A program made the translations under genes and the position numbers. The notes under the pieces are model-generated. The model saw only the letters and a program-made list of their open reading frames with translations, did not search any database and had not been told where the DNA came from. A DNA stretch of 41,415 nt from a virus. Location of the stretch: IMG/VR virus record IMGVR_UViG_3300042362_000346, positions 1-41,415 of that record. The stretch is one strand, 5' to 3'. Positions 9,171 through 40,176 of the stretch are shown in pieces (the stretch's first letter is position 1; each line of letters begins with the position of its first letter).

Positions 9171-9172
9171 CC

Positions 9173-10260: not shown

Positions 10261-10279
10261 TAGCTCCCTCCCTCCCACA

Positions 10280-10310: not shown

Positions 10311-10323
10311 CACGGGGCCACTG

Positions 10324-10353
10324 CTTAAAACTTAATTCTTAAAACTTAAAACT
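10324..10353 (+). repeat. Tandem heptamers, copy 1
   Basis: Four tandem 7-mers (CTTAAAA, CTTAATT, CTTAAAA, CTTAAAA) plus CT form a 30-base AT-rich element. An exact second copy lies at 13452-13481. Each sits just upstream of a start codon, here the ATG at 10359. It is a candidate protein-binding or promoter-like site or an AT-rich translation enhancer. Confidence 0.7.
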
Positions 10354-10358
10354 TCTCC

Positions 10359-10727: not shown

Positions 10728-10748
10728 AACATCAAACCCACCACCACC

Positions 10749-11036: not shown

Positions 11037-11039
11037 GCC

Positions 11040-17843: not shown

Positions 17844-17845
17844 CC

Positions 17846-18874
17846 ATGGCAACCATCACCAAAGGCAAAACTTTCGTAAACGGCGAACTCGTCACCCCAG
17901 AGAAAATCCACCAGCTCGTCGATGCCGCGACACTCTCGCCGCTCGTCAATGCCGACATCGCCTCAAATGCCGCCATCGCCGACACGAAGCTCGCCACCAT
18001 ATCAACGGCCAACAAAGTCGCCCAATCTGCGGTTGCAAACCTCACGACCGACCTGGCTGGGAAAGCTGCTTCTTCGCACACGCACACGATTGCCAATGTG
18101 ACGGGCTTGCAAACGGCGCTGGATGGCAAGCAGGCGTCTGGAAGCTATGCGCCTGCAACGGGTATCGCGCCAAGCGCCATCACTGGAACGGCCGTCATCA
18201 CGACCGACTCCCGCCTCTCGGATGCGAGGACGCCGACCACGCATACGCATGATGATCGTTACTACACAGAGACCGAGGTCAATAGCCTGCTCGCAGGCAA
18301 GCAAGCGTCTGGCTCTTATGCCGCTGCCACGCATACGCATTCCGCCGACAACATTACCAGTGGGACTCTTGCAAACGCCCGCACCACCGCCACGAGCAGT
18401 AATTTACCCAATACTATTGTAGCTCGTAATAATTTTGGCGCCATACATATAGGTCTTATAACAGGTTTTTCGCCTGGGCCTAATAGTGGAATATACAATA
18501 TAAATACATCGGAATTTCAATACATCGGCGGAATTTTAACCAACAGCACTAACACTGGCGTCATTTATAGCACTGGCTCCGACCACCGGCTCAAAACCGA
18601 CCTCGAAAAACTAACCGGCGCATTGGATCGCTTGTCGGCCTTGCCGGTCCATCGGTTCAAGTGGGTTGGCCATCCCGCCGCACCGAAAGTCGATGGCTTC
18701 CTAGCCCACGAAGCGCAGGCCGTCGTGCCCGAAGCCGTCACCGGCACTAAGGATGCCGTGGATGCAGACGGCAAGCCAATCTACCAAGGCATCGACCAAT
18801 CCAAACTCGTCCCCCTCCTCGTTGCCGCCGTCCAAGAACTCGCCGCCCGCGTCGCCGCCCTCGAAGCCAAATGA
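17846..18874 (+). CDS. Tail fibre with C-terminal S74 chaperone
   Basis: A 342-residue fibre. Residues 1-60 are an attachment part; 70-170 contain stalk repeats with HTH triplets (78-80, 133-135, 163-165) and two GKQASGSYA copies (94-102, 151-159). Residues 183-243 are a distinct Asn/Ile/Gly-rich tip encoded by AT-rich DNA. From 245 an intramolecular chaperone of the Peptidase_S74 type follows: SDHRLK (Ser245 as cleavage nucleophile, Lys250 partner), a GFLAHEAQAVVPEAV block and a final coiled coil. The chaperone drives trimer assembly and is then cut off. Likely the main receptor-binding fibre. Confidence 0.85.
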   Translation: MATITKGKTFVNGELVTPEKIHQLVDAATLSPLVNADIASNAAIADTKLATISTANKVAQSAVANLTTDLAGKAASSHTHTIANVTGLQTALDGKQASGSYAPATGIAPSAITGTAVITTDSRLSDARTPTTHTHDDRYYTETEVNSLLAGKQASGSYAAATHTHSADNITSGTLANARTTATSSNLPNTIVARNNFGAIHIGLITGFSPGPNSGIYNINTSEFQYIGGILTNSTNTGVIYSTGSDHRLKTDLEKLTGALDRLSALPVHRFKWVGHPAAPKVDGFLAHEAQAVVPEAVTGTKDAVDADGKPIYQGIDQSKLVPLLVAAVQELAARVAALEAK

Positions 18875-19269
18875 CCCCCGCCCCCACCATGCTCCGCCCC
18901 GAGCCCTACCACGCGACCAAGCTCGCCGTGCGCCGGTCTCCCTTGCACCGGTGGGGCGTCTTCGCCACGGCTCCCATCGCCAAGCACGAAGTGCTGGAGG
19001 AGGCTCCCTACGCCACCGTGCCCAAGAAGCAACTCGCCAAAGCCCCCGCCTGCGAGACCTACAGCTACTACCTCGACGACGCCACCAGCATCATCGGCTT
19101 CGGCCTCGCTCCCCTCTACAACCACCACGACACCCCCAACGCCTGCCATGAGATCGATGCGGTGAACGAACTCATGCGGCACTACGCCCTGCGCGACATC
19201 GCCCCAGGCGAAGAGATCACCCTCAACTACGGCGCAGAAAACGCCAAGCACTTCTTAGAAAAGGAATAA
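18871..19269 (+). CDS. SET-domain protein (putative protein-lysine methyltransferase)
   Basis: A 132-residue protein that is almost only a SET domain. Visible hallmarks: RWGVFATAPIAKHEVLEE (27-44, the entry motif G-x-F-A), NHHDTPNA (84-91, matching the N-H-x-x-x-P-N core that binds S-adenosylmethionine), and RDIAPGEEITLNYG (108-121) with the catalytic-type Tyr120. No pre-SET or post-SET Cys cluster is present, as in the small viral vSET of chloroviruses. It would methylate a lysine of a phage or host protein; the substrate is unknown. The ATGA overlap with the fibre gene sets the start and suggests co-expression with late genes. Confidence 0.85.
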   Translation: MTPAPTMLRPEPYHATKLAVRRSPLHRWGVFATAPIAKHEVLEEAPYATVPKKQLAKAPACETYSYYLDDATSIIGFGLAPLYNHHDTPNACHEIDAVNELMRHYALRDIAPGEEITLNYGAENAKHFLEKE

Positions 19270-19273
19270 TTCT

Positions 19274-21421
19274 ATGGCAATGAACATGAGCAACAGCGGC
19301 GGAGGAGGCGGAATGTCCGGCGGCGGTGGCGGTGCCATGAGCCAAGCTATGAGCGCACCCGCCATGAGCGCAGCCATGTCCGGCAACAACGCCATGTCAA
19401 CAGGGTCAACCGGGTCAGCTATGTCTGGCGGGGGTAGCGCCATGTCCAGTGGCGGCATGGGAATGGGCGGCATGAGTGCGCCTCCAGCACCTCAGCCACG
19501 CAGCCTTGCTCAAGAATTAGGCGACATTTCGCAATACTCCTCCCAAAACGCGCAGTCGCAAGCCGACGCCGCGATTCGCACCAACGACGCCTTCCAAGAC
19601 CAAGCGCAGGAATCGACCCGCGACATCGCCCGCCAGCTCGACAACGACTACACCCGCGCCGCCCGCGCCAATCTGGATCAAGCCCAAAGCGGCATCAACC
19701 AAGTCAACGCCGCCAATACCGGCCTCGGCCAACTCCGCGACCAATACGCCGCGCAAGGCCAAGACCCCGCCATGCGCCGTCTCAACGACATGGCCGCCGG
19801 ACAACTCTACCGCCCCGACCAAATCCGCGCCGGTCAAGTCGCAGCTGATCAAGTCCGAGGGGCGCAAGTCGCAGACATCGGTCGCATGGAGGCCGCGCAG
19901 GCTGGCCCAGTTGCCGATGTGCAAGCGCGGCGCGTGCTTGCCGCTCAGGGTATTGCGTCGCAAATGGGACAAGTCGCCGATGTGCAGGGACCGGCAGGCT
20001 ACGACCCCAATCAAGTTCGCGCTCAACGCATGAGGGCCGCGCAAATGGATCAGATCGGCGAAGTCGGAGTCGGGAACATCCGCGCCAGCGCCGCCGAGCG
20101 TAGCCTGATGAACGAAGCCAGAGGAGGCGGACTCCTTGGCCAACTGGAATCCCGCGCCGCCAGCGACCTTGCTCTCGGGGGTTCTCTCTCCGCCGAGCAA
20201 AGCCGAGACGCCACGCAGAGCGCTCGCGCCGCCGCCGCTGCCCGTGGCCTTGGCCTCGGCCAATCCGCCGTGGCTGCCGAACTCCTCAACCGCGACCGCT
20301 TCACCTCGCAGCGTGAAAACGAGCGCCTTGCCTTTGCCCAGCAAACCCTCAACCAAGGCACCGGCATCCGCCAAGCCGCCAACCAAGCCTACGCCACCCG
20401 CATGGAGGGAAATACCGCCCGCAACCTCCAAGCCCAACTCGCCAACCAGCAGACCGCGTTTGGCATTGGCCAGCTCAATACCCAAAGCCAGCAACAAACC
20501 GCCCTCGCCAATCAAGACGCCAACCTCCGCGCCGCGCTTGCCAACCAATCTGCCAACGCCCGGGCCGCCGAATTTCAACAGCAAGGAGGGCTCCAAGCCG
20601 CCCTTCAAAATCAACAAGCCGCCCTTCAAACAGGTCAATACAACGCAGGCAACCAGCAGCAAATGGCGCTGGCGAATATGCAAAACCGCCAGCAGGCCAG
20701 CCTTTCCAACCAAGACGCCTTCCTCCGCGCCGGGCTCGCCAACCAAGCCGCCGCCCTCCAGCTCGGCCAGACCAACGCCAATCTCCAGCAACAGGCCAAC
20801 GCCGCGACCTTCGCCAGTGCCGACCAACGCGCCACCAACAACGCCCAATTCGCCCAGCAGGCCGCGCTCGCCAACCAATCCGCGAATCTCAACGCCGCGC
20901 AATACAATGTCTCGCAAGACATGTCGGCCCAGGCCCAGAACCAAGCCGCCAACCAGCAGCAAGAGCAATACAACCGCGCCTTCCTCGGCTCGGTCGCCGG
21001 GATGAATTTCGATCAAAACCAAGCCCGCACCTCCATGCTCTCCGGCCTCTACGGCCAGCAGGCGGGACTCGGCCAGACCAGCGCCGCCCTCGCGCAAGGC
21101 ATGGCCCAAAGCCAAGTCGCCCTTGACCCCTACCAACGCGCCCTCGGCAGCAGCATGCCAATCGCCACGATCTCCCCCAGCGCCGGACTCATCGGCCAAG
21201 CCTACGGCCAGACCATGAGCTACGGCCAAGACCTCTTCAACACGAACACCAACATGCAGGCCAGCATCTACAACAGCTTCCAAAACAACCAAGCCGCTCT
21301 GCAAGGCGCCGGACTTCAAGCCGGTGCTGCAAGAGCTGCCGGACAATCCTCCATGATGGGATCAATCGGTGCCGGTGGTTTGGCAGCCGGAGGCATGATT
21401 GGAGCCGCCGTTATTATCTAA
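19274..21421 (+). CDS. Putative internal virion protein with 11-residue repeats
   Basis: A 715-residue protein. Residues 1-68 are built of Met/Ser/Gly/Ala (MSGGG, AMS) low complexity. Residues 80-380 are helical, Ala/Gln-rich. Residues 389-553 are fifteen consecutive 11-residue units such as LANQDANLRAA, LANQSANARAA and LSNQDAFLRAG. The end is a hydrophobic Gly/Ala stretch (GAGGLAAGGMIGAAVII) able to enter a membrane. This suits an ejection protein stored in the head and delivered into the host envelope with the DNA. AAGGA at 19261-19265 is a normal ribosome site. No sequence family recognised. Confidence 0.6.
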   Translation: MAMNMSNSGGGGGMSGGGGGAMSQAMSAPAMSAAMSGNNAMSTGSTGSAMSGGGSAMSSGGMGMGGMSAPPAPQPRSLAQELGDISQYSSQNAQSQADAAIRTNDAFQDQAQESTRDIARQLDNDYTRAARANLDQAQSGINQVNAANTGLGQLRDQYAAQGQDPAMRRLNDMAAGQLYRPDQIRAGQVAADQVRGAQVADIGRMEAAQAGPVADVQARRVLAAQGIASQMGQVADVQGPAGYDPNQVRAQRMRAAQMDQIGEVGVGNIRASAAERSLMNEARGGGLLGQLESRAASDLALGGSLSAEQSRDATQSARAAAAARGLGLGQSAVAAELLNRDRFTSQRENERLAFAQQTLNQGTGIRQAANQAYATRMEGNTARNLQAQLANQQTAFGIGQLNTQSQQQTALANQDANLRAALANQSANARAAEFQQQGGLQAALQNQQAALQTGQYNAGNQQQMALANMQNRQQASLSNQDAFLRAGLANQAAALQLGQTNANLQQQANAATFASADQRATNNAQFAQQAALANQSANLNAAQYNVSQDMSAQAQNQAANQQQEQYNRAFLGSVAGMNFDQNQARTSMLSGLYGQQAGLGQTSAALAQGMAQSQVALDPYQRALGSSMPIATISPSAGLIGQAYGQTMSYGQDLFNTNTNMQASIYNSFQNNQAALQGAGLQAGAARAAGQSSMMGSIGAGGLAAGGMIGAAVII
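20438..20932 (+). repeat. Fifteen tandem 33-bp units (hendecad coding repeat)
   Basis: The stretch encodes residues 389-553 of the internal virion protein without a break in the 11-residue register. Unit starts are usually Leu-Ala-Asn-Gln or Gln-Tyr/Leu-Asn; Gln, Asn and Ala dominate. Hendecads favour right-handed or straight helical bundles. DNA is similar but not identical between units, so it is old or selected at protein level. Confidence 0.85.
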
Positions 21422-21423
21422 AT

Positions 21424-22497
21424 ATGAAGGAACTCATCGCGGCAACCGTAAATCGAATTCACGCCTGGCACGCCCGTTGGCCGAACGCCGCCGTGCTTTG
21501 GAGCGGAGGCAAGGACAGCACCGCTATGCTCCATTTGCTGCTGCACTACTGCGGGCTGGATCTCCCGATTGTGCAATACCGCGAGCCGAAGCTCCGCGAG
21601 CGTTATGCCTACAGCGACCGGCTCATCAAGGAATGGGGACTCACGATCTACGACTACCCGCCGACCCGCATGGCCATCGCCGATGGGCCTGATGTGGAAA
21701 ATGGCACCATGCGTTTTGACATGCTCAAATACTACCAATGGGGCGAGACCGCTGTCGTGATGAGCCTCGGCACCGAGCGCCCCAAGCCGGGCGAGAGATT
21801 CCTCTGCGGAGTCACCGATTTCTTGCAACGCCCCACCGGCAACTTCAACTGGCCATGGGAAGCCGTGTATATCGGCACGAAATACGAAGACACCGACCTC
21901 ATCAAAGGCCATGTCCCTCTCGCCCTCGACATACGCAATGTCCCAGGCGGCCCCGTGAGCCTCTACCCGATGCGCGATTGGAGCGACAAAGACATCTACA
22001 CCTACCTCGAAGACCACGGCGTTACACCCGACCCCACCCGCTACATCAAGACCGAGGCGGGCTGGGTCAACAACCCCGACAAATCCCTTAACGCCGACTT
22101 CTACCCCGTCTGCTTCAACTGCGTGGACCGCCACCAAGGCCCGCATGTGGATTGCCCGAAGCTCAAAGCCCGCATCAGCAACATCAGTCACCTCGCCCCC
22201 TACGAAGACATCGTTTTCCCCGACCTCGGATTCAAACCCATATGGAATACGACTGCCAACGGTGTGGAGCCTGTTGCTCCCACAAATGGAGCTGGCCCGT
22301 GCTCAAGCGCGACCGCTCCGACGCCACCGGCATCCCTGCCGAATACCTCCGCACCGACTACCCTTTGCTCAAAACCTCGCCCTGCGGACGCTGCATCGCT
22401 CTCCGTGGCGAGGTGGGCCGAGGAGTCGCCTGCGCAATATACCAACACCGTCCGAATGCCTGCCGGTCCTTCCAGCCTGGCAGCCCACTCTGCCTAG
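21424..22497 (+). CDS. PAPS-reductase-like PP-loop protein with an overlapping C-terminal extension
   Basis: An adenine-nucleotide alpha-hydrolase of the phosphoadenosine phosphosulfate reductase family: the PP-loop is LWSGGKDSTAML (SGGKDS at 27-32), followed by typical REPKLRERYAYSDRL and later MRDWSDKDIYTYLEDHG. A Cys cluster CFNCVDRH ... VDCPKL (about 226-244) may bind a metal or sulphur centre. The recognisable domain ends near residue 272; the last 85 residues are low-complexity Pro/Ala/Ser/Thr and coincide with another gene in a different frame, so they look like read-through past a lost stop. The reaction in a phage is uncertain (sulphur transfer, nucleotide or tRNA chemistry). Confidence 0.75.
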   Translation: MKELIAATVNRIHAWHARWPNAAVLWSGGKDSTAMLHLLLHYCGLDLPIVQYREPKLRERYAYSDRLIKEWGLTIYDYPPTRMAIADGPDVENGTMRFDMLKYYQWGETAVVMSLGTERPKPGERFLCGVTDFLQRPTGNFNWPWEAVYIGTKYEDTDLIKGHVPLALDIRNVPGGPVSLYPMRDWSDKDIYTYLEDHGVTPDPTRYIKTEAGWVNNPDKSLNADFYPVCFNCVDRHQGPHVDCPKLKARISNISHLAPYEDIVFPDLGFKPIWNTTANGVEPVAPTNGAGPCSSATAPTPPASLPNTSAPTTLCSKPRPADAASLSVARWAEESPAQYTNTVRMPAGPSSLAAHSA

Positions 22498-22529
22498 AAG
22501 CCCGTAAATCCCAAAACCTCCCCACCTAA
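22242..22529 (+). CDS. YkgJ-like Cys-cluster protein
   Basis: A 95-residue protein starting MEYDCQRCGACC, the hallmark of the YkgJ/UPF0153 family (C-x-x-C-x-x-C-C), with later CGRCIAL, ACAIYQHRPNACRSFQPG and a final Cys, all as expected for this metal-cluster family. Third codon positions are strongly G/C, as in the rest of the genome, which supports this frame over the overlapping end of the PAPS-reductase-like frame (256-nt overlap). No Shine-Dalgarno sequence is seen, so translation may be coupled. The cluster and its exact role are unknown; the pairing suggests a joint redox or sulphur function. Confidence 0.78.
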   Translation: MEYDCQRCGACCSHKWSWPVLKRDRSDATGIPAEYLRTDYPLLKTSPCGRCIALRGEVGRGVACAIYQHRPNACRSFQPGSPLCLEARKSQNLPT

Positions 22530-22530
22530 T

Positions 22531-23070
22531 ATGCCCTACGCCCCCACCGTCAACGACCGCTCCGGCGAAATCCTCGGAGAATACACCGCTAACGCCGCCA
22601 ACATTCGCGCCCAAGGCATGGCCAACATGGGCCAATCCATCGGCGAAGGACTAAAATCTATGGGGTCCAGCATTGCCACAGGCATTACTAAAGCCGCTGA
22701 AAACCGGATCGCATCCGATGGTGTCAACGCCAAGTTCGACATGCTCAAGGACTACAAATTGACAGACGGCCAACCTCTCTTCAGCCAAGAGACTATCGAC
22801 AAATTCGACACCATGCCGCTCGGCAAGCGCCAAGGTATTGTCTCGACGGCAGAATCATTCATGGATCACGACCTAAAGCGCTGGATGTATCAGACCCAAT
22901 ACAACGCCCAAGCCAACCGCGTGAACGCTAACATGCTCGCCCAGCAACCTGCTCCGAATCAGCAGCCCTACACCGGAGTGCCAGCAGCCGCCCCCACAGC
23001 CCAGCCACAGGCCAACCCCGCCGGCAATATCAACATGAAATTTGTGACGGAGCCGAAACAGCAACAATAA
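22531..23070 (+). CDS. Putative internal virion protein
   Basis: A 179-residue protein: an N-terminal helical, Gly/Met/Ala-rich part that could touch membranes (MANMGQSIGEGLKSMGSSIA), a middle helical domain, and a Gln/Pro/Ala-rich tail (150-179). It begins right after the YkgJ-like gene with an AT leader (CTAAT) and no Shine-Dalgarno site. Position in a block of ejection-type proteins supports a virion role; no family is recognised. Confidence 0.5.
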   Translation: MPYAPTVNDRSGEILGEYTANAANIRAQGMANMGQSIGEGLKSMGSSIATGITKAAENRIASDGVNAKFDMLKDYKLTDGQPLFSQETIDKFDTMPLGKRQGIVSTAESFMDHDLKRWMYQTQYNAQANRVNANMLAQQPAPNQQPYTGVPAAAPTAQPQANPAGNINMKFVTEPKQQQ

Positions 23071-23074
23071 TAAT

Positions 23075-23929
23075 ATGGACCCCTCCGAACTCGAAGCCTT
23101 CGCGCAAAACTATCAGATCGCCGGCGCCGTGCCTCCACCGCCGCCCAAGGCATCCAAAGGCAACAGCTTTGACTTTGGCAGCATCGTCGTGCAATCCGCC
23201 GAGGATTTCGCCCGGTTGCCAGAGTCCCAAAAGCAACTCCTGCGAAACATGAAGCAGGGCATCCAATACACCCCGCAAGCCGCAGCCGAATTCGTCGAGA
23301 CCTTCAACACCCGCGTCATGGAGCAGTCCACGCCAAAAGCCCAAGCGGAGATGAAAGCGGCCCAACTCTCCGCAGAAAAATCCGCTCTAGAAAAAGCCAA
23401 GCTCGAGCAGGAGGCCATCGCCAAGGCCAAGGAGCAAGCCGAGATCGCGACCCGCAAGCAGCTCGTCCTTGAAAAGATCAACAAATACACAACCCCAACA
23501 GGCCCAAACTCAACGCTTTTGACAGACCTTGTGGGCAAGTGGGACGGCACGGCCGGCGCTGCGATAGATTCTGCTGGCTGGGATGACCAACGCGCCGCCC
23601 AACGCGCCGAGCTTGAGCGCCTCGTCAACAACGATGTCCTAGAGCTCACCAAATTCCTCAAGCCCGTTTCGCAGGACGAATTGAAATTCCTCAAAGGCAT
23701 GAGCCCCCGCCTGCACCAGAACGATACCATTTGGAGGGAATACCTCCTCGACGCCAAGTCCCGCATCGAAGGCATGGGCGGATCTGCTTCTGCTCCCCAA
23801 GCCGCTCCACAACCCGCCACCGCACAACCCCAGCAACCCGCCCCGCAAAGCATTCGCAAAACTCCCGCAGGCGACCTGATCCAACTTCCCAATGGTAAAT
23901 ATTATCCCGCCCAATTCTACCGCCCTTGA
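23075..23929 (+). CDS. Coiled-coil virion-region protein
   Basis: A 284-residue protein. Residues 18-28 are Pro-rich, 95-140 a long Ala/Lys/Glu coiled coil (AEKSALEKAKLEQEAIAKAK), 145-230 a helical domain, and 232-284 a Gln/Pro/Ala linker ending in DLIQLPNGKYYPAQF, a short motif often seen at ends of phage internal proteins. Its last 38 bases overlap the start of the giant gene. It is probably a partner of that protein in the internal core. Confidence 0.5.
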   Translation: MDPSELEAFAQNYQIAGAVPPPPPKASKGNSFDFGSIVVQSAEDFARLPESQKQLLRNMKQGIQYTPQAAAEFVETFNTRVMEQSTPKAQAEMKAAQLSAEKSALEKAKLEQEAIAKAKEQAEIATRKQLVLEKINKYTTPTGPNSTLLTDLVGKWDGTAGAAIDSAGWDDQRAAQRAELERLVNNDVLELTKFLKPVSQDELKFLKGMSPRLHQNDTIWREYLLDAKSRIEGMGGSASAPQAAPQPATAQPQQPAPQSIRKTPAGDLIQLPNGKYYPAQFYRP

Positions 23930-26900
23930 GGACAGGGAATATTCCCAAGATGAAGTTGACGCTCTAGCAGCCGCCGAGCTGCCGGTGCAGGACGCCCCTA
24001 TTCCCCCAAACGCCTCTACGGCCTCAGCCGCCGCAAGCGGAGCACCTGAACCGACAGGATCTGCCGGACTGATCACCGGCGAGGGGGCGCTGCCTGCCCG
24101 CGGACCCGCCATAGGCCCCGTTGCCCAGCTTGAAGATCGTGAATACACGGCCGAAGAAATCGACCTACTTGAGCAAGCCAACCGACCCAAAGGTTACACT
24201 CAAGACGAGGTGGACAAAATGGTCATGGAAGCCCTCGAAGATCCAAACTACATCCCGACTCGCGACGAGTATTTCGACCAAAAGGCCACCAAGGAGCGCC
24301 TCAAGGCCCAAGGCAAAATCCCTGGCAATGGCGAACTCGCAGCCAAGGCCGTCGGAGGGTTGTTCGTCACCGCAGCGGATGTTTTTTACACACTGGCGGT
24401 AGACCCAGAGGGAAGCGTGACACGCATCCCAGAGACATGGGACCGAATCAAAGCAGACACCCTCAAGGAGCCAAAATCAGAGGCTCTTGCCAAAGCCCCC
24501 GCCACACTCCAGACCGGCATCGGCCGCGCTGCCTTGAGCGCCATGCAGCTCGGAGGCTGGGCCAAGCAGGCTCTGGAAGGCCAACCTAAATATATCAACG
24601 AGGCCACGGGAGAGTTTTTGTTTGCCGAGGCGCAAAACCCAATGATCCTCGCCGGGTTCCAAGAGCGATATCCAAATCAACCGATCCGCCCAACCAACGA
24701 GGAGGATTTGAAGGATTACGAATTCAAAAACCATCTTTGGGAAAAAGGCATCGACGCCCAATATCAAGAGCTCGGGCAAAAGACCGCGCCCACCGAGCTA
24801 CTCACCCGCGTGCTCACCGGCCGCAACCAGCAAGAGACGCCCATCGAGTCCCAGGCTCAGGTGCTCGAGATCGCCACCGACCCGACCAACATCATCCCCT
24901 TCAGCGCTGGCGCAAAACCCCTCGGCCTCTCCCGAGGCATGAAGATCGTCAGTGCCAAGACCGCCAGCGGCATCGAAAAACTCGCAGGCGGCCTTGTCAA
25001 AGGCAACGACATCCTCGCCGAGCGTTTCGCCAGAGTCGTCACCGAAAAGACCGGCGTGAGCCCGCAAAACATCTCCGCCGCGGCAAACGCCATGACCTTT
25101 GGGCGCAATGTCGGCATCGGTGGCGGTATCGCTGCAGGAGCCGCCGCAGTGGGCGCCCCTCCAGAAGTCACCGCCACCATTGCCGGGTTCTACCCCGCCT
25201 ACAAAGCAGGGCTCGGCGTGCTCCGCAAGATCGAGACCGGAGCAGGCACAGCTAAAATCATCCTCCGCGAATCCGCCGACGCCACCAATGGCCTCGACCA
25301 AGCCGCCCGAGCCGCCGTATTGGCGAACCCCGCGGTGCCCTCCATTTTCAAAGAAGTCCTCGAGCGCCCAAGCCAGTTCGTAAGCATCGAGAGCACACCC
25401 GCCCGCCTCGCCGCGAATCAAGCCCTCTCGCCGCAGATGCGTGCATTCATGGGCAAGCTCTCGAATCCCGCCATCGTCCAAGCCGTCCGCGGATCCAGCG
25501 CCCTCGCCACAGGTGCCGCAAAAGGTGCCGCCGCAAATGTTCCCTTCGCCCTCCTCGCCGCCAATGCCGGTCAGGATGAAGACGCCGCCGCCATGCTCGC
25601 CATGGGCGGCACCTTCGGCGCCCTCGGCGGAGGAGTGGACCGTTTCACTGGCCTCCAGCAACGCCGCCAGCAAGCCGCCCTCAGCGATGTGTCCCGCATG
25701 CTCGTCGATATCGAACTCAACGCCGGAGATGTCGGAAAAATGATGGCCACGCAGACGCCCGACAACCTCGTCAGGCTCGCCGCCATGCAGGGCACCTTCC
25801 GCAACAACCTCGATTTCGTTCCCCTCAGCGCCGAGGAATACGCCAAAAATGTAGACGCCCAAGGCGGAGCCGGAACCGCCGGCATGTTTGTGCAGGCCCC
25901 ACTCGGCGAACGCGCCAAGGTCTTCATCAACCTCGACGCCCGCCGTGGAGGAGTCGAGCCTCATGAATTCGGCCACGCCCTCCTCGCCAGCGGAGCCCTT
26001 GATGGCCAGCAGAAATACGCCGCCCGAGCCTGGGTGGATAAAACCTACGGCCCCGAAGGCGTCCAAGCCCGCGCCCGCGAATACGCCAGCAATATCATCC
26101 GAGGCAAAAACGCCAGCGCCTTCCCCGACGGCAACTTCGAGATCAGCCCCGGCACACTCACCGCCGAGATGGAGAACCTTAGCCAAGGCGGACTCGCCCG
26201 AGGCGACATGGACGGCCTCGATTGGGCCCGCGACGAGATTTTCGCCGAGACCTTCGCCAAGGCCAGCAACACCATGGATTTCGCCGCCATCCGCCGAGGA
26301 GCCCCCGCCGGCGGCAATATGCTCACCTTCGCCGAGAGCGTCCTCGGTGCCCAAGCCCGCGCCCTCAGCGCCAGCGGTGTGCGCATCGACCCGCAGACCG
26401 GCCAAGCTCTCGACACGCCCGGCAGCCTCTTCAAAGAGAACCCAATCCTCGCTACCGACAAAGCCCTCCTCAACCAGCTCGGCACCTACATCAACAACTA
26501 CCGCCAGTGGGCCAACGACCCCACCCACGAAAAACCCCGCCCAAACCGCATCGCCCCCAGCGGCCGCGCCAGCGACATCGCCAACAACCCCCAGGTCACA
26601 TTCTACGACCGAGGCGACGGCGTGAAGGCCACCACCTTCGCCACGCAAGACCCCGCCACCGGCCAAGCCATCCTCCGCGACCAGCGCGATCTCAACAAAG
26701 AACACGCCAAGGTCAAAGAGCAGATCCGAAACATCGTCGGCTCCAAACTCATCGACCCCACTAACCCCGTCCTCGGCCCCAAGAAGACCGCAGACGGCCG
26801 CGTCACCGTGCGAGGCCGCGTCCTACCGCCCAGCTTCGATTTTCTCAACGGCTTCATGCCGCACATCCGAGCCTTCGCACGCCAGTTTGAGGCCCTCGGA

Positions 26901-29900
26901 GCCGCTGGCGAGAGCATGCAGGTCCGCTACCACGCCATCGGCAGCGGAGACACCGGCGCCTTCCGAGTCAACCGCCTCGGCAACCTCGAAGCCATCACCC
27001 GCGAGGTCATCCCCTGGGGATGGGAACTCACCAAAGCAGGCAACCTCAACGCCACCGTGCTTGACCTCTCGCAATTCCGCAACCGCGCCATGCGAGGCAT
27101 CGCCGAGCGCAACCCCGCCCTCGCCCCCTTCGACTACGACATGGGCAAGATCGAAGCCGACCTCAAGACCTACATGGAGAACCACCGGCAAGAACTCCCC
27201 GGCAACACCAAGATCGGCGACGAGAAGCGAGACGCCATCAACGCCATCCTCGGCATCGCCACCACCAAAAACCGCGAGCGCAACGCCCTCTCCGGTAGCT
27301 TCGGCCCCGGCAGCGCCATCAAACAATTCCGCCTCGACCGCGTAGACGCCGCCGTAGGCACCGGCCGCACCGGCTTCCACTTCGACTACGACCGCGCCAA
27401 CCGCAACTTCATGCCCGACAAGCCAGCCCCCATGCCGGACTTGTCAAGGGACCTGCCAACCGCTAAAGGTCAAGCCATGCCCGAAGACCAACGGGCCGCC
27501 GAACAATCTGGGCAACCTTCGCGTGGCGGTTCAGATGCGAAGGTTTTAAAAACGGTTTTGCAGTCCATCCCTATGCAAGCAAGAGGGGAATATAGTCTTG
27601 CAATTGTTGACGGATTACAGGGTAGCCCGTTCGCGTTTCGACATGGCGATGGGTTTGTTGCTGTGGTTGATGTTTCATCCGAAAGGATGTCGCAGTCAAA
27701 AAGCCAAGCACAAAGGTTTCGGTTGTTTCAACAAGTAATTGGTAAAGAAACTCTCCCGCCGAATACTTTCATTCGCGTTACAAATTCCAAAGATGATTAT
27801 CATCATATTAAAAACGGAACGCATCGTGGTAGCCGAAACCATGGGTTGAATGATTTTGATACCGAAACAAACGCAGATGAGGGAGGGTTAAGCGTTGCTT
27901 ACGATTTTGAGTTCCCAGCAAAATACGCATATCTTGTAAGTGGTGAAATTGCAAAAACAGGCACAGATGGAGAGCCAATTCTTGCGATGGATTCTGTAAA
28001 GGTTGCTGGCCCTCTTATGCAGTTTGAGAAATTGGCTGAAAAGATTAAAATTCCAAGCTCATCTGTAACAGAGAAAAACAGATTCTATTTTTCAAATTCT
28101 GAAAGATCAATTCCTTACCGATTCGGAATCGTTAATTCACAACCCGATTTACAACCGATACCTTTTAATTCTCCCGCGCCAGCCACCGGCGCGACCCCCG
28201 GCCAAGCCATGCCGAATGCGGTGGCTGGAAGGGCAAAAGACATGCCGATGTCAGCTTTGAAAGTGTTGCACGCAGATAGTTCAACACTGCCGAAACCTGA
28301 TAAAAAGACAACGAACGCGAAGGTGGCATTGCAGTTGGCAGACGCCGCTGAAAAGCATTACGGCGGCAAGGTCACCAGCAGCAATATTACGCCAGAAATC
28401 GAGTCTGATCTAATTATCGTAGGATCGGATGAGGCTGAAGCGGCGCTTAAAGCAAGCGGCAAAAATGCCGCCAACTGGTATTCCACCGCAATCCAAGCGG
28501 CTTTGGCGGTAGCGGGAACAATTCATAGGTCTCTTTCCGATTTGAATGTCGCCAAACAAAACAAATTCTTTGCCAAGGAAAGCGATCCGGTAAAAGCGGC
28601 ACAGTTTGCTCTTAGAATTCCCCTGGCAATCACATCGCAAAACATGACCGTGCCGCTCAATGCGAGATACGCAAACGAGCAGTTCGATATTTTTTCAAAA
28701 ACAGGAAAGTTCGACCCGTCGAAATCTTACGGAGAAAAAGCAAAATCCATCAGCGGGAATCTTCAATTAGCCAATGACATGATTGATGCCTTTGGCGGAA
28801 TCACTGCATTAGAAGCATTCGTATCAAAGGAATTTACCGTTCGAGACCTGGAAGCCGTGGCGTCGAAAGCTGCCGGCCGTAAGGTTACCATCGCAGGGCG
28901 GAAAGAAGATATGGTCAATGGTGCGGCTATCTTTGGACCAAAGATTGGACAAGGTTTTCTGCAAAACCTCATGGGCAACTTCGACCCGGTCACCATTGAT
29001 CTTTGGATGCGCCGAACATGGGGTCGCTGGACAGGCGATGTTGTTGGAGATGGAGTCACAGCCACTCGGCTTGGCCGAATCATTCAAGAATATCGCAACT
29101 CTGGAAGGAAACTCCCTGACTTGATCAAGCGGCTCCGCACCGTGGAAAGAAGCACTGGGGTCACAAGCACTGGCAAACCCAAAAAACCAGAACTCACGGT
29201 TTCTGAAGATGTGGAGGCTCGCATCGATAATGATCCCGCATTCCGAAAAGAAATTGAGGCGTTCGCCAAAGAGGCCAACGCAGAGTTCCAAGGCTACTAC
29301 AAACTCATCAGCCAACCCATGTCCCTTGATGAAGTAAAACGCATCAACAAGGCATTCCAAGACGCGCAGGCCAACCAAGACAAGGCCGATAGTATCATCC
29401 AAAACGCTTTCACAACGACCGTCCGCAGGCAGCAAGCTATCAAAACCATGCTTGACCAGAAATGGGATGGCATGTCTCCAGAGCAAAAGAAAAAACTCAA
29501 CGAACAAAACCCGCAGAAAGCCATTGCCAAAGATGCATGGGTGGCAATGCAACACGCAGCGCAAAAAAGGACTGAGGTCCTTCCAAACGAAATCAAAAAC
29601 GCATTGAAGCCAAACTGGGCCAATGCAGCAAAATCCATTGTCTCCGAACTAAACCCCATCGACATCCCATCCGATCTCGACCGCCGCGTTATCAGTCGCG
29701 TTGTAAACGGCATTCGAGAAGAAATGGGCCGTCGCGGATACAGCCTCACAAACGCAGATGTCCAAGCTATTTTGTGGTATCCAGAAAAAGATTTGTGGGC
29801 TAAATTACGAGGTGAACAAGAATCAGGTCTCAAACAAAGCTATGACGACGAATTCATCAAAATCGCAGAAGACCTCGGGCTTGGATCAGAAGCCCGAGAG

Positions 29901-29927
29901 GTTGCAAACCGAATCAGAGGCTATTGA
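23892..29927 (+). CDS. Giant multidomain ejection/polyvalent protein
   Basis: A 2011-residue protein, the largest here. N-terminus: three copies of L-E-D-R-E-Y-[ST]-x-[DE]-E-[VI]-D or a shortened form (12-23, 80-91, 101-109). Around 691-695 HEFGH, with DEIFAETFA near 781, fits a zinc metallopeptidase (H-E-x-x-H plus downstream Glu). Residues 970-1170 hold a large domain (FDFLNGFMPHIRAFARQFEA). From about base 27535 (residue 1215) the DNA is visibly more AT-rich to the end; residues 1215-1425 form an unrecognised domain. The C-terminal block includes GPKIGQGFLQNLMGNFDP, DLWMRRTWGRWTGD and LTNADVQAILWYPEKDLWAK, seen from memory in large phage polyvalent proteins. It probably enters the host with the genome, acting as peptidase and effector carrier. 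Confidence 0.75.
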   Translation: MVNIIPPNSTALEDREYSQDEVDALAAAELPVQDAPIPPNASTASAAASGAPEPTGSAGLITGEGALPARGPAIGPVAQLEDREYTAEEIDLLEQANRPKGYTQDEVDKMVMEALEDPNYIPTRDEYFDQKATKERLKAQGKIPGNGELAAKAVGGLFVTAADVFYTLAVDPEGSVTRIPETWDRIKADTLKEPKSEALAKAPATLQTGIGRAALSAMQLGGWAKQALEGQPKYINEATGEFLFAEAQNPMILAGFQERYPNQPIRPTNEEDLKDYEFKNHLWEKGIDAQYQELGQKTAPTELLTRVLTGRNQQETPIESQAQVLEIATDPTNIIPFSAGAKPLGLSRGMKIVSAKTASGIEKLAGGLVKGNDILAERFARVVTEKTGVSPQNISAAANAMTFGRNVGIGGGIAAGAAAVGAPPEVTATIAGFYPAYKAGLGVLRKIETGAGTAKIILRESADATNGLDQAARAAVLANPAVPSIFKEVLERPSQFVSIESTPARLAANQALSPQMRAFMGKLSNPAIVQAVRGSSALATGAAKGAAANVPFALLAANAGQDEDAAAMLAMGGTFGALGGGVDRFTGLQQRRQQAALSDVSRMLVDIELNAGDVGKMMATQTPDNLVRLAAMQGTFRNNLDFVPLSAEEYAKNVDAQGGAGTAGMFVQAPLGERAKVFINLDARRGGVEPHEFGHALLASGALDGQQKYAARAWVDKTYGPEGVQARAREYASNIIRGKNASAFPDGNFEISPGTLTAEMENLSQGGLARGDMDGLDWARDEIFAETFAKASNTMDFAAIRRGAPAGGNMLTFAESVLGAQARALSASGVRIDPQTGQALDTPGSLFKENPILATDKALLNQLGTYINNYRQWANDPTHEKPRPNRIAPSGRASDIANNPQVTFYDRGDGVKATTFATQDPATGQAILRDQRDLNKEHAKVKEQIRNIVGSKLIDPTNPVLGPKKTADGRVTVRGRVLPPSFDFLNGFMPHIRAFARQFEALGAAGESMQVRYHAIGSGDTGAFRVNRLGNLEAITREVIPWGWELTKAGNLNATVLDLSQFRNRAMRGIAERNPALAPFDYDMGKIEADLKTYMENHRQELPGNTKIGDEKRDAINAILGIATTKNRERNALSGSFGPGSAIKQFRLDRVDAAVGTGRTGFHFDYDRANRNFMPDKPAPMPDLSRDLPTAKGQAMPEDQRAAEQSGQPSRGGSDAKVLKTVLQSIPMQARGEYSLAIVDGLQGSPFAFRHGDGFVAVVDVSSERMSQSKSQAQRFRLFQQVIGKETLPPNTFIRVTNSKDDYHHIKNGTHRGSRNHGLNDFDTETNADEGGLSVAYDFEFPAKYAYLVSGEIAKTGTDGEPILAMDSVKVAGPLMQFEKLAEKIKIPSSSVTEKNRFYFSNSERSIPYRFGIVNSQPDLQPIPFNSPAPATGATPGQAMPNAVAGRAKDMPMSALKVLHADSSTLPKPDKKTTNAKVALQLADAAEKHYGGKVTSSNITPEIESDLIIVGSDEAEAALKASGKNAANWYSTAIQAALAVAGTIHRSLSDLNVAKQNKFFAKESDPVKAAQFALRIPLAITSQNMTVPLNARYANEQFDIFSKTGKFDPSKSYGEKAKSISGNLQLANDMIDAFGGITALEAFVSKEFTVRDLEAVASKAAGRKVTIAGRKEDMVNGAAIFGPKIGQGFLQNLMGNFDPVTIDLWMRRTWGRWTGDVVGDGVTATRLGRIIQEYRNSGRKLPDLIKRLRTVERSTGVTSTGKPKKPELTVSEDVEARIDNDPAFRKEIEAFAKEANAEFQGYYKLISQPMSLDEVKRINKAFQDAQANQDKADSIIQNAFTTTVRRQQAIKTMLDQKWDGMSPEQKKKLNEQNPQKAIAKDAWVAMQHAAQKRTEVLPNEIKNALKPNWANAAKSIVSELNPIDIPSDLDRRVISRVVNGIREEMGRRGYSLTNADVQAILWYPEKDLWAKLRGEQESGLKQSYDDEFIKIAEDLGLGSEAREVANRIRGY

Positions 29928-31024: not shown

Positions 31025-31079
31025 TTACCCATTTTCAGCCATTTCCACGAATTTTCAAACATATTGACGAAGAAAGCAG

Positions 31080-31122
31080 AAAAGCCCGCCGAACCAGTCT
31101 CCATGGGGTTCAGCGGGCTTTT
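31080..31122. terminator. Bidirectional terminator between integrase and attP core
   Basis: AAAAGCCCGCCGAACC (31080-31095) pairs with GGTTCAGCGGGCTTTT (31107-31122) except at one position. T-runs flank both ends in either reading direction. As it lies directly behind the tRNA-like 3' end, it may be the terminator of the host tRNA gene carried along within the attachment region. Confidence 0.85.
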
Positions 31123-31130
31123 AGAAGGGG

Positions 31131-31175
31131 AGCCGACGACGAGATTTGAACTCGTGACCTATCGATTACGAATCG
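31131..31175 (-). other. attP: attP core: 3' part of a tRNA-Thr(CGT)-like gene
   Basis: Read on the minus strand, this gives the 3' half of a tRNA: anticodon loop TTCGTAA (T33, anticodon CGT), the 3' side of the anticodon stem TCGAT, variable AGGTC, T-arm ACGAG-TTCAAAT-CTCGT, acceptor strand CGTCGGC and discriminator T. The 5' half is missing: the 5' anticodon strand matches for only three bases and no D-arm follows. Phages that use tRNA genes as attB carry just such a fragment, so this is the likely crossover site, 107 bp upstream of the integrase start. Confidence 0.75.
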
Positions 31176-31211
31176 CAGATGGAGGATTGGTTTTCATTGT
31201 TTTGCGAGGGC

Positions 31212-31230
31212 GTTGCGTCGGTGTTGCGTC
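31212..31230 (+). repeat. Integrase arm-type sites, two copies
   Basis: GTTGCGTC at 31212 and 31223 (11 bp apart), same orientation as the three copies at 30995-31021, so that the core is flanked on both sides. They lie next to the 3' end of the lipoprotein gene. The 30-base stretch between core and repeats shows nothing else. Confidence 0.6.
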
Positions 31231-31236
31231 GAGTGG

Positions 31237-36942: not shown

Positions 36943-36949
36943 AAATGTG
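36934..36949 (+). promoter_or_regulatory. Shared ribosome site with overlapping ATG and GTG starts
   Basis: AAGGA at 36934-36938 lies six bases before ATGTG: ATG at 36945-36947 begins one 497-residue frame and GTG at 36947-36949 begins the other of 502 residues. A single site can thus serve two starts that share one G. Confidence 0.7.
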
Positions 36950-38438
36950 GATACTACCAAAGAATTTACAGCTATCGAGTGGTGCGCCGGATACGGCGGG
37001 ATTCATCTCGGACTTAAACGAGCAATCCCAAATCTGCGCGTCATCTCTTATGGTGAGATCGAAGCCTTCTGCTGCGCGAATTTGGTTGCAAAAATGGAAG
37101 CGGGACTCTTGGACCCAGCACCTCTCTGGACGGATATTAAGACCTTCCCATGCGAGGACTTTCGTGACCGAGTGGACCTCCTTGTGGCCGGTTACCCCTG
37201 CCAGCCATTCAGCGCAGCCGGAAAGCGACTCGGCACAGAAGACCCTCGCCACCTCTGGCCACACATCGCCAGATCAATACGAGTTATTCGACCTCGACTA
37301 TGCTTCTTTGAGAATGTCGAAGGACACATCAGCCTCGGACTCCGAGAAGTCATTGGAGAATTGGAATCAATCGGTTATAAAAGCTCGTGGGGAATATTCT
37401 CGGCGGCTGAAGTCGGCGCACCGCACCAACGCAAGCGGGTCTTCATCTTGGCCTACGATCAGAGCCAGCGAATACAAGGACACTGGGCCGATTGGCTCCA
37501 AGAGTCACGACCACATGCTGGGCAAGGGCTACCTCTGCGCGGTGGTGACGCAGGATGCGGCGAATTGGCCGACGCCGGACGCATCGAACCACAGGGATGG
37601 GGAAGTGCTACGCAAGGACAACAATCTGGAGCAGGGAGGATTCCACGGAGTCAGCCTGCACCATGCCATGACCAAGTATGGCCAAGCCGCCCCGGCGAGC
37701 AGCAGTTCGCTTGGGAGCCGCCAAGGGTTGTCGGAACAGTCCCAAAGAAACTGGCAGACTTTTGCTCACGGGACGCACAACAGGGGCGAGACACCGCACA
37801 GGCAGGTGGTGAAGGCACTTGTGAACGGGGACAAGGCGAAGACGCAATGCCTCACGGTGGATCAAGTCTTTGCGGAGGAGATCAAGGGGACGAGCCGCCA
37901 AGAGTCGTGGGCAACACCAAATGCGTTTTGCTACCAGCCGCCGGAGAACACGGAGAAATGGACGAAGCGAGCGGAATACCAGCAGACGGAGAAGGGAGTG
38001 AACCTTCACAAGCCGATTCAGACGCAAGTCTTGCACGAAGTGGAGAAGCAATGGGCAACGCCTCAGGCACACGATGCCCAAGGCCCGAAGACGCCGGAGC
38101 AGATCGAAGCAATGAGGGCCAAGGGCCATGGCGTGAAGAATTTGAACGAGATGGTGACATGGCCAACGCCGAGTGCGAGTTGCGACCAAGGCGGACCGAG
38201 CGGCCTAGCCGGCGGATCGGGCAACCGGAAGAAACTGAACTCCATGCTGTCGAGGGAGGAGGCCAAGGCAATGGGTTGCGGCAAGCTCAACCCGCGATGG
38301 GTCGAGACGCTGATGGGGCTTCCGGTGGGCTGGGTTATGCCGAGCTGCAAGTCTCCTGTGACAATCGAACCGACGAGCTGCGCCTCCTCGGCAACGGAGT
38401 CGTGCCTGCCACCGCCGAGCGAGCTTTTCGCGTTTTAA
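36945..38438 (+). CDS. WPTP-repeat protein, out-of-frame with the methyltransferase
   Basis: A 497-residue frame that covers nearly all of the methyltransferase gene. It starts MWILPKNLQLSSG and carries five W-[PA]-T-[PI] units: 169-172, 208-211, 322-325, 370-373 and 406-409, mostly followed by [RDNQS]-A. Near the end is LNPRWVETLMGLPVGW (448-463). Proteins with these repeats and such an ending recur in phages from memory, sometimes as separate genes. In the second half the third codon positions of this frame are mostly G/C, as in ordinary genes here. The ATG has the better initiation site. Function unknown; a link to DNA modification is suggested by the shared locus. Confidence 0.72.
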   Translation: MWILPKNLQLSSGAPDTAGFISDLNEQSQICASSLMVRSKPSAARIWLQKWKRDSWTQHLSGRILRPSHARTFVTEWTSLWPVTPASHSAQPESDSAQKTLATSGHTSPDQYELFDLDYASLRMSKDTSASDSEKSLENWNQSVIKARGEYSRRLKSAHRTNASGSSSWPTIRASEYKDTGPIGSKSHDHMLGKGYLCAVVTQDAANWPTPDASNHRDGEVLRKDNNLEQGGFHGVSLHHAMTKYGQAAPASSSSLGSRQGLSEQSQRNWQTFAHGTHNRGETPHRQVVKALVNGDKAKTQCLTVDQVFAEEIKGTSRQESWATPNAFCYQPPENTEKWTKRAEYQQTEKGVNLHKPIQTQVLHEVEKQWATPQAHDAQGPKTPEQIEAMRAKGHGVKNLNEMVTWPTPSASCDQGGPSGLAGGSGNRKKLNSMLSREEAKAMGCGKLNPRWVETLMGLPVGWVMPSCKSPVTIEPTSCASSATESCLPPPSELFAF

Positions 38439-38455
38439 TAGAGGAACTTATTTAA
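36947..38455 (+). CDS. C5-cytosine DNA methyltransferase
   Basis: A 502-residue enzyme from a GTG start. Ordered motifs: I EWCAGYGGIHLGL (11-23), II SYGEIEA, IV GYPCQPFS with catalytic Cys85, VI FFENVEGH (ENV 122-124), VIII GAPHQRKRVF (161-164), and IX/X LLGNGVVPATAERAF near 480. The region 170-470, which should hold target recognition, is unusually long, low-complexity and rich in Gly, Arg, Gln, Asp, Glu; there the other frame reads as WPTP repeats. The enzyme would methylate cytosine in phage DNA, probably against host restriction. The TAA stop overlaps the helicase start. Confidence 0.88.
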   Translation: MDTTKEFTAIEWCAGYGGIHLGLKRAIPNLRVISYGEIEAFCCANLVAKMEAGLLDPAPLWTDIKTFPCEDFRDRVDLLVAGYPCQPFSAAGKRLGTEDPRHLWPHIARSIRVIRPRLCFFENVEGHISLGLREVIGELESIGYKSSWGIFSAAEVGAPHQRKRVFILAYDQSQRIQGHWADWLQESRPHAGQGLPLRGGDAGCGELADAGRIEPQGWGSATQGQQSGAGRIPRSQPAPCHDQVWPSRPGEQQFAWEPPRVVGTVPKKLADFCSRDAQQGRDTAQAGGEGTCERGQGEDAMPHGGSSLCGGDQGDEPPRVVGNTKCVLLPAAGEHGEMDEASGIPADGEGSEPSQADSDASLARSGEAMGNASGTRCPRPEDAGADRSNEGQGPWREEFERDGDMANAECELRPRRTERPSRRIGQPEETELHAVEGGGQGNGLRQAQPAMGRDADGASGGLGYAELQVSCDNRTDELRLLGNGVVPATAERAFRVLIEELI

Positions 38456-39969
38456 TGCAATACCCCGAAAAAGAGAGCGCCGTCGTCGGCTATATTAGTG
38501 TCGCTGGCTTTGCCGGCGTGCCGAGGTCGGCGATTGTGGACCCCGATAGTTTTGTCTCGGTGCTGAATGGCGTTTACTACGCCGCAGCGCACCGGCTGCA
38601 CTATGCCAAGAAGGCCACGACGGGCACGACGATCCTCGAGGCGATTGAGAGGGATCCGTTTTTGCTGAAGGTGGCGGAGCGGACGGCGCAGGAGTCGGGG
38701 ATGGTGTGCTGGCGCGATGGCTTGGTGATGGCCGACAGCTCGCTGGCTTACAACCCGGCGGGTGGCGCCATCGTCTCGGAATACTTGGCGGACATCGCCT
38801 CGGCGGCCGCGCAGCGCAAGGCGACTAAGATCGGTCAGAGGTTGGCCTCGGGGGATATGCCTGTGGCGGAGGCTCTGGAGGAGCTCAAGACACTGGCGAA
38901 GCCTCGGGCGTCGATGGTGGGCGTGGAGATGCATACTTTTGAGGAGCTGTGGAGTTACAAGGCGGAGGACGACTCAAGCACGCTGGTGGGCAACCGCTGG
39001 CTGTGCCGTGGCGGCCAGCTCCTGCTGCTGGGGCAGTCTGGCATTGGCAAATCCTCCTACACCCTGCAACAAGCGATGACTTGGGCGCTGGGGATGCCGT
39101 TTTTTGGGATGAAGCCGAAGCGGCGGCTGCGGTGCCTGATCGTGCAGGCGGAGAATGATATGGGGGACATGGCCGAGGTGGTGCAGGGCGTGATGTCGTA
39201 TGTAGTAGCCCAATCCAAGATGACGCAGCGCGAGGCGGTGGATATCCTGCGGGAGAATGTGATCGTGGCGCGGGTGACGGCTCAGACGGGTGAGGCGTTC
39301 ATCGAGGTGATCCGGGAGCTGATTGCGAAGCACGGGCCGTTCGATCTGGTCTACGGGGATCCGTTGCTGTCATTCATCGGCGACGACATTTCCCAGCAGG
39401 CTGTGGCCAGTCACTTCCTGCGCGAGCTGTGCAACCCGTTGGCGTTCGAGCATGGGTTTGCGTGGGTGTGGAGTCACCACACCGGCAAGCCGCAGAGCGA
39501 CTCGAAGAGCCGGGCGCATTGGAATGCGAATGACTATGCCTACATCGGGCTGGGATCGAGTGAGCTAACGAACTGGGCTCGGGCGATCTGTGTGCTCCAG
39601 ACCACGAAACACGAAGGAATCTTCAAAGTTTTATTGGCCAAGCGGGGCAATCGGGCCGAGGCGATGGATGAGCACGGGCATCCGACGACGGATATCATTA
39701 TCAAGCACGCGGCGAAGGGGCTGCATTGGGAGCCCGCGGAGCTGCCCGAGGAGACGGAGGAGCAGACACAATCCAAGGGCAAGGCGGGACGCACGCCCAA
39801 AATCTCGGCCTACGATGAGGCGGAGATCGTGGCGAAGCATGCGACCTGGCCGCAGGGCGCTCGGGGTTTTTATACCGAGATGCAGGGCAAATACGGCGTG
39901 AGCCGAGACACTATCGAGAGGATCCTGCGCCGGTCCAAACAGGGCGCACAAAACCTCAAGGCGGCGTGA
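38455..39969 (+). CDS. RepA/DnaB-like replicative helicase (AAA_25 type)
   Basis: A 504-residue protein. Residues 1-145 resemble the DnaB N-terminal helical domain (FVSVLNGVYYAAAHRLHYAK, ILEAIERDPF). The RecA-like core has Walker A GQSGIGKSS (193-201), RCLIVQAEND, Walker B FDLVYGDPLLSF (Asp302), and WSHHTGKPQSD as a late motif. Residues 430-504 are a linker and a small helix-turn-helix-like end (GVSRDTIERILRRS). It unwinds DNA at the phage origin; nine iteron-like repeats lie directly downstream. GAGGA about 10 bases before the ATG serves as ribosome site. Confidence 0.82.
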   Translation: MQYPEKESAVVGYISVAGFAGVPRSAIVDPDSFVSVLNGVYYAAAHRLHYAKKATTGTTILEAIERDPFLLKVAERTAQESGMVCWRDGLVMADSSLAYNPAGGAIVSEYLADIASAAAQRKATKIGQRLASGDMPVAEALEELKTLAKPRASMVGVEMHTFEELWSYKAEDDSSTLVGNRWLCRGGQLLLLGQSGIGKSSYTLQQAMTWALGMPFFGMKPKRRLRCLIVQAENDMGDMAEVVQGVMSYVVAQSKMTQREAVDILRENVIVARVTAQTGEAFIEVIRELIAKHGPFDLVYGDPLLSFIGDDISQQAVASHFLRELCNPLAFEHGFAWVWSHHTGKPQSDSKSRAHWNANDYAYIGLGSSELTNWARAICVLQTTKHEGIFKVLLAKRGNRAEAMDEHGHPTTDIIIKHAAKGLHWEPAELPEETEEQTQSKGKAGRTPKISAYDEAEIVAKHATWPQGARGFYTEMQGKYGVSRDTIERILRRSKQGAQNLKAA

Positions 39970-40000: not shown

Positions 40001-40176
40001 TGCCGCAAAATTACCGCAGAATGACCGCAGAATGGAAATTATGCGGCACAGGATAACTGCCGCAAAATTACTGCCGCATAATCCCCCCTTAAAGGGGGGG
40101 GATAATTATGCGGTAGTTAATTTTTCGGCGTCGTTATTTCCGTCCTGCTTTTACCGCAAAATAGATTTGTGCGGCA
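40001..40176. promoter_or_regulatory. Iteron cluster, candidate replication origin
   Basis: Nine copies of an 11-mer T[GA]CCGCA[ATG]AAT or close variants fill an AT-rich gap between helicase and packaging genes. Forward: 40001, 40012, 40023, 40058, 40072, 40152. Inverted: 40038-40048, 40105-40115, 40166-40176. The first three are spaced 11 bp. Some continue as TGCCGCAAAATTA. Iterons beside a helicase gene suggest an origin; an operator array for the next operon is the alternative. The rest of 39970-40183 shows no gene. Confidence 0.65.
40072..40115. other. Hairpin within the iteron cluster
   Basis: TGCCGCATAAT (40072-40082) is nearly the complement of ATTATGCGGTA (40105-40115), with CCCCCC/GGGGGG arms and a TTAAA loop between them. 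The long cruciform-capable element is made of two inverted iterons and a C/G tract. It may be a primosome or unwinding element, or a terminator of the helicase transcript, though no T-run directly follows. Confidence 0.6.

Follow-up and report, generated by a model that had tools for sequence, protein, structure and literature searches.

A repeat array directly 3′ of a DnaB-type helicase gene is a candidate replication origin that is probably read by the helicase's own C-terminal HTH domain

The window, that is, the whole stretch of DNA analysed here, is a complete IMG/VR virus record (IMGVR_UViG_3300042362_000346; 41,415 bp). It carries an exact 127-bp terminal repeat, so the assembly is circular or circularly permuted. 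In the window, the stop codon of a replicative helicase gene ends at 39969 and the next gene, encoding a Cys/His protein, starts at 40184. The stretch between them, with a GC content of 43.6% versus approximately 60% for the genome, contains nine copies of T[GA]CCGCANAAT within 40001–40176, six direct and three inverted, of which seven are exact and two carry one mismatch (Table 1). A degenerate tenth copy, I3, keeps its position in relatives and its sequence follows the repeat class (CTCCGAAAAAT in class 2). The remaining ~41.2 kb of the window hold only ten other sites with at most one mismatch, none of them exact, which corresponds to ~0.04 expected sites in a 176-bp stretch. Additionally, 200 dinucleotide shuffles of the intergenic sequence gave no 7-mer as frequent as the repeat. 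No credible open reading frame was found in the repeat stretch. The AT-rich, gene-free array of six direct and three inverted repeats proposed by an earlier sequence-only reading is thus confirmed by the counts, the shuffles and the base composition; the degenerate tenth copy had escaped that reading.

Table 1. Features of the helicase gene and of the repeat stretch that follows it in the window.
Feature	Position	Strand	Sequence	Remark
DnaB-type replicative helicase gene, 504 aa	38455..39969	+		DnaB-N-like N-terminus, AAA_25/RecA core
C-terminal DNA-binding domain (predicted)	39787..39966	+		GRTPK arm, then three-helix HTH
Iteron D1	40001..40011	+	TGCCGCAAAAT	
Iteron D2	40012..40022	+	TACCGCAGAAT	11-bp phase with D1
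Iteron D3	40023..40033	+	GACCGCAGAAT	11-bp phase with D2
Iteron I1	40038..40048	-	TGCCGCATAAT	
Core imperfect palindrome / stem-loop (~90 nt)	40051..40140	.		Holds D4, D5, hairpin, I2 and I3
Iteron D4	40058..40068	+		Core palindrome, outer left arm
Iteron D5	40072..40082	+		Core palindrome, inner left arm
C/G hairpin	40083..40099	.	CCCCCCT-TAA-AGGGGGG	Tip of core palindrome; kept in relatives
Iteron I2	40105..40115	-		Core palindrome, inner right arm
Degenerate tenth iteron I3	40120..40130	-	CGCCGAAAAAT	Core palindrome, outer right arm
Iteron D6	40152..40162	+		
Iteron I4	40166..40176	-	TGCCGCACAAA	

The C6/G6 hairpin noticed in the same reading is present and turns out to be the tip of a longer palindrome. 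As DNA, this palindrome folds with -28.6 kcal/mol (z -6.74), and none of 200 shuffles folds as well. The hairpin shows compensatory changes in relatives, with ACCACCCT/AGGGTGGT in L031 and CCCTCCCC/GGGGAGGG in L054, and relatives of other repeat classes have a stem-loop at the same place (z -2.7 to -8.6). A search of the stretch against Rfam returned only sub-threshold eukaryotic snoRNA and miRNA families, that is, the hairpin matched by chance. No sigma-70-like promoter was detected in a scan that covered this promoter type, and no AT-rich melting element separate from the iterons was found. The stretch shows one of the hallmarks of an iteron origin, namely clustered short direct repeats in an AT-rich intergenic stretch directly after a helicase gene, and has in addition what marks the pRN1 origin and the predicted BIP-1 origin, a stem-loop of ~100 nt immediately 3′ of the replication gene.

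The helicase itself matches PF13481 with an E-value of 1.2e-15. The best PDB matches of its AlphaFold model, the confidence of which is moderate (mean pLDDT 64), are DnaB chains (E 5e-10, ~464 aligned columns, TM 0.3–0.4). From the Pfam match and these structural matches, whose overall TM is low, we assign the protein to the DnaB type (SF4); no match to a primase domain was found in it. Across relatives, the last ~60 residues align as a GRxPK arm followed by a three-helix HTH, and the window protein has the recognition helix GVSRDTIERIL. The HTH helices are modelled by AF2 with a pLDDT of 84–88. Pfam HTH_7, HTH_32 and HTH_28 match weakly in 7–10 of 21 members (best E 0.002–0.006), Foldseek of the HTH gives only weak homeodomain- or Tc3-transposase-like matches, and sequence-profile searches of the PDB returned no relative of either the HTH or the whole helicase. 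The weak Pfam match and comparison by eye hint at a Hin/resolvase-like HTH.

Relatives of the helicase were collected from IMG/VR, with 70 loci in one scan and further loci by profile, and four more came from genome records; tblastn against the 50,697 deposited phage records of INPHARED returned none. The AAA_25 core is constant among them and the N-terminus varies: it resembles DnaB-N in the window's group and PriCT in L075, and in L051, L131 and L153 it is a CHC2 zinc-finger primase part, which L054 shows more weakly. The C-terminus is an HTH in most relatives and, by eye, apparently a winged helix in L075. At L075 (4584–4730, from a Proteobacteria MAG), a perfect hairpin with 12-bp arms, TCAAGATCCCCC/GGGGGATCTTGA, and repeats of identical sequence stand 3′ of this related helicase with its different C-terminus.

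In every HTH-bearing relative with downstream sequence, a repeat cluster lies 3′ of the helicase stop codon; a few of the most A-rich clusters of class 5 exceed shuffles only modestly (p 0.02–0.045). The repeats fall into at least seven classes, TGCCGCANAAT, CTCCGCAAAA, GTCCA[AG]AAT, CCGAAAAAT, GGAAAAAAT, CCCACAAAAAA and AACGCCAAAAAA, in which the 5′ half varies and an A-rich 3′ half is common to all. Measured from the hairpin centre, the copies stand at -90, -80, -68, -52 (minus strand), -34 and -20 on the left and at +16 (minus), about +29 (minus), +60 and +76 (minus) on the right, positions that are about equal across classes 1–3 and largely so in class 5. The gene 3′ of the repeats differs among relatives (the Cys/His gene, a 40435-type gene, NrdR-like, RuvC-like or a methylase), so the repeats belong to the helicase. 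That they lie beside the helicase, as the sequence-only reading had it, holds; their adjacency to packaging genes, which it also pointed out, is incidental because the following gene varies. In L038, L039 (6482–6740) and L153 (5041–5290), a second repeat set lies ~150–250 bp upstream of the main hairpin array and is separated from it by a repeat-free AT-rich stretch.

The repeat class goes with the recognition helix of the upstream helicase. Specifically, TGCCGC repeats (TGCCGCANAAT), those of class 1, pair with SRDTIER (SDDTIQR in L115), CTCCGC repeats (CTCCGCAAAA) with SHDTIKR or SGDTIKR, GTCCA repeats (GTCCAGAAT) with SKSTIYE, SKSKIYD or SRSKIYE, and CCGAAAAAT repeats with SADTIKN, and within a cluster all copies change in concert with the helix. 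Mapped onto a helicase-core tree of 426 columns, the three main classes require nine changes, versus two, the lowest number possible, on a tree of the C-terminal domain. In the reverse direction, 2.9 million viral contigs were scanned for class-1 and class-2 arrays alone, which returned 19 and 16 contigs, respectively. A matching recognition helix lies just upstream of the array in 18 of the 19 and 15 of the 16, that is, in 33 of 35, the match being drawn from the comparison of relatives for three of these 33 (L005, L007 and L033). As for the two exceptions, one contig ends before the gene and the other is an unrelated AT-rich contig. The genome G012 has class-1 repeats like the window, yet has only about eight genes in common with it; within this set, the helicase C-terminus is the one part by which class 1 and class 2 can be told apart, and the match shows clearly in the recognition helix, not in the identity of the whole segment.

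Three candidate binders had been put forward, namely the C-terminal HTH of the helicase, the Cys/His protein at 40184 and the HTH protein at 40435, and only the first survives the comparison: it co-varies with the repeats, unlike the helicase core. G002 has a different repeat class, yet its Cys/His protein is 88% identical to that of the window; this protein also does not follow the repeats in L046–L050 and has another location in G008. For the 40435 protein, the identity between the window and G002 is 96%, again despite the different class. The conserved layout, the stem-loop and the near one-to-one co-variation of helix and repeat are established at the level of sequence, and we strongly infer from them that the repeats and the helicase C-terminal HTH form a protein–DNA pair in which the HTH binds the repeats directly. 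That the cluster would function as a replication origin is a good reading, one step behind the binding. Taken together, the repeats are probably origin iterons directly 3′ of the helicase gene, with the helicase's own C-terminal HTH as the binder.

The GC skew bears on the origin part of this reading. The cumulative maximum lies 0–126 bp from the helicase stop codon in five of seven genomes (the window, G001, G002, G008 and G010), within about 600 bp in G009 and 3.4 kb away in G005. For a bidirectional origin, a skew sign opposite to that at the repeats is expected. At the repeats the skew switches from positive to negative, a terminus-like polarity on the assumption that forks diverge there; the cumulative-skew check suggested with the earlier reading thus came out against it, with the repeats at the maximum and not at the minimum. 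Third-position skew flips as well: it is approximately +0.3 in most early genes and approximately -0.4 in late genes, both sets lying on the plus strand. The minus-strand genes near 31 kb are consistent with an effect of the DNA strand in which the other skew switch lies near 31.1 kb. The terminus-like skew may reflect a terminus or genome end at the repeats, a start near 31 kb, or a composition set otherwise than by fork direction. Its polarity lowers confidence in the origin, not in the helicase binding site. Of the iteron-regulated origin first proposed, then, the tie between iterons and helicase stands through the co-variation; the sign of the skew speaks against the origin, which is still the best reading of the sequence.

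Several observations were made elsewhere in the window. The cumulative GC-skew minimum (~31,101) falls in 31,025–31,236, between the integrase gene and the minus-strand genes, and adjoins a sequence that resembles a tRNA in its 3′ part (GATTTGAACTCGTGACC...) and is probably attP; ARAGORN found no complete tRNA. The DNA methyltransferase gene (36947–38455) has a third-position GC skew of -0.19, unlike other early genes; most near relatives lack it or match it poorly, which makes it a probable recent arrival. In 7902–13268 and 15942–29927, relatives that are otherwise almost identical differ strongly in several late genes (11040–13268, for example, at 6–28% identity), a pattern that tail or host-recognition genes would be expected to show.

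The alternative that fares best keeps the helicase HTH as the binder and takes the repeats as an operator or control region at the early–late boundary, through which early genes would be turned off or late genes controlled. In the window the repeats do separate early from late genes, at a point where both skew and codon composition shift. However, the next gene is RuvC-like, of replication type, in L115–L119 and a methylase or another gene elsewhere, so the repeats go with the helicase and not with the late genes. The lack of a sigma-70-like promoter in the stretch (the one promoter type covered) and of any exact site elsewhere in the window also speaks against an operator, for which a long stem-loop would be unusual, and we consider this alternative unlikely.

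Less probable still is a cosB/pac-like packaging site bound by the small terminase, presumably the 40435 protein. The repeats stand just upstream of this putative small terminase, which is so named from its position only, and the skew maximum would be consistent with a linear genome that has its ends here and is replicated from about 31 kb. Repeats of such a site should track the small terminase gene as well as its specificity, and these repeats do not: the 40435 protein is nearly unchanged in G002, with its different class, and only 71% identical in G006, with the same class, the cluster is kept in relatives with other genes directly after it, and the repeat class follows the helicase HTH.

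We give similarly little weight to mere physical linkage in recombined segments, by which class and C-terminus would travel together and the true binder would be another, unrecognised protein. The HTH is encoded only ~60–200 bp from the repeats, so that part of the co-variation is possibly linkage. L029 and L030 have a common linker sequence and differ in both HTH and repeats, which suggests that the two were exchanged as one cassette. On the other hand, SRDTIER and class-1 repeats are still matched in L038–L040, which have diverged to 70% helicase identity, no other common protein separates the classes, and a trans-acting binder is needed for all copies to change in concert.

Least probable is a replication terminus or fork barrier in place of an origin, which the skew polarity would favour; we know of no terminus that is bound by the tethered HTH of a replicative helicase. 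The layout and the neighbouring gene instead match known helicase-recognised origins (PMC7581432, PMC4234260).

Distant relatives appear to have the parts of the putative origin-reading helicase as two proteins. In L055–L070, the helicase ends early without an HTH and a gene of ~100–114 residues comes next; beyond it, most of these loci have GGATGA repeats spaced at 11 bp and a hairpin whose tip is CTAAAG. L059 and L060 have no clear GGATGA repeats, and some other clusters in this group do not exceed shuffles. The small protein has no significant DNA-binding match in Pfam and looks winged-helix-like by eye. The arrangement suggests a split version of the helicase/HTH/repeat module, possibly with a split initiator.

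The same logic is known from other replicons. In SaPI Rep and SCCmec Cch2, the C-terminal domain recognises iterons directly 3′ of its own gene, and Cch2 is a 3′-to-5′ helicase that is discussed with the D5 helicase family (PMC7581432). The window helicase likewise has a C-terminal domain, by all indications DNA-binding, and repeats directly 3′ of its gene; unlike these proteins, it is DnaB-type (RecA core, AAA_25), its C-terminal domain is an HTH and its core repeats lie in a long C/G-tipped stem-loop. Being AAA_25/DnaB-like, it is not a member of the SaPI Rep/Cch2 family. In pRN1, a 100-bp stem-loop 3′ of the replication gene is the origin and is required for replication, and in phage BIP-1 a stem-loop 3′ of the replication protein gene is the predicted origin (PMC4234260). 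The window resembles both in its ~100-bp-scale stem-loop 3′ of a replication gene, which in pRN1 ORF904 and BIP-1 encodes a protein with a C-terminal winged-helix domain. However, those proteins combine an SF3 helicase with an archaeo-eukaryotic type primase, and pRN1 has no iterons (PMC4234260), whereas in the window the helicase is DnaB-type and the iterons build the stem-loop. By analogy, the window origin would work like those of SaPI Rep/Cch2 and pRN1/BIP-1 without being a member of those families.

Two further systems share single traits. RSF1010 oriV comprises iterons and the hairpins ssiA and ssiB and is served by the RepA helicase, RepB′ and RepC (as described in PMC4234260). The window has iterons and a hairpin as well, and the split version in L055–L070 resembles the division of labour between RepA and RepC; the RSF1010 iterons are bound by the separate RepC, whereas the binder of the window phages is apparently fused to the helicase. 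The alpha protein of phage P4 acts as a helicase and also binds the repeats of its origin through a winged-helix domain (as described in PMC4234260), and so would resemble the window protein in joining helicase and repeat-binding domain. It differs from the window helicase in the fold of its C-terminus and in carrying a Toprim primase as well, and the searches made returned no homology between the two. What appears to be new here is a DnaB-type helicase as the origin-reading helicase, self-recognition being already known in the SaPI Rep type. Literature searches gave no account of these phages as a family, nor of any DnaB-type helicase whose HTH binds iterons, a negative that does not prove absence.

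DnaB-family ring helicases normally reach the origin through separate initiator and, often, loader proteins. For the window phages, we propose that several helicase subunits would use their tethered HTH domains to bind the direct copies, phased at 11 bp, as well as the inverted pairs, and so gather the helicase over the AT-rich stretch, and that the ~90-nt palindrome with its C6/G6 hairpin would open or extrude, providing single strand for ring loading and priming. A role of the hairpin as a loading or priming site is a weaker suggestion, and helicase loading without a separate loader is speculative. More broadly, and tentatively, a DnaB-family helicase may here be its own initiator and loader: a swappable HTH would read class-specific iterons, the ring would load on the iteron stem-loop with no separate initiator or loader, HTH and origin would be exchanged as a cassette to give mutually blind replicons, and distant relatives would keep the parts as two proteins.

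In this family the replicative helicase seems to carry the domain that reads the origin; at least seven repeat specificities occur naturally, cassettes appear to have been swapped, and relatives show what looks like a split version. The family would be a natural set for asking whether a DnaB-type ring loads itself at a specific duplex site, useful also for reading the recognition code of the HTH, and would offer a handle on replication in an uncultured phage family for whose helicase no relative was found among the deposited phage records.
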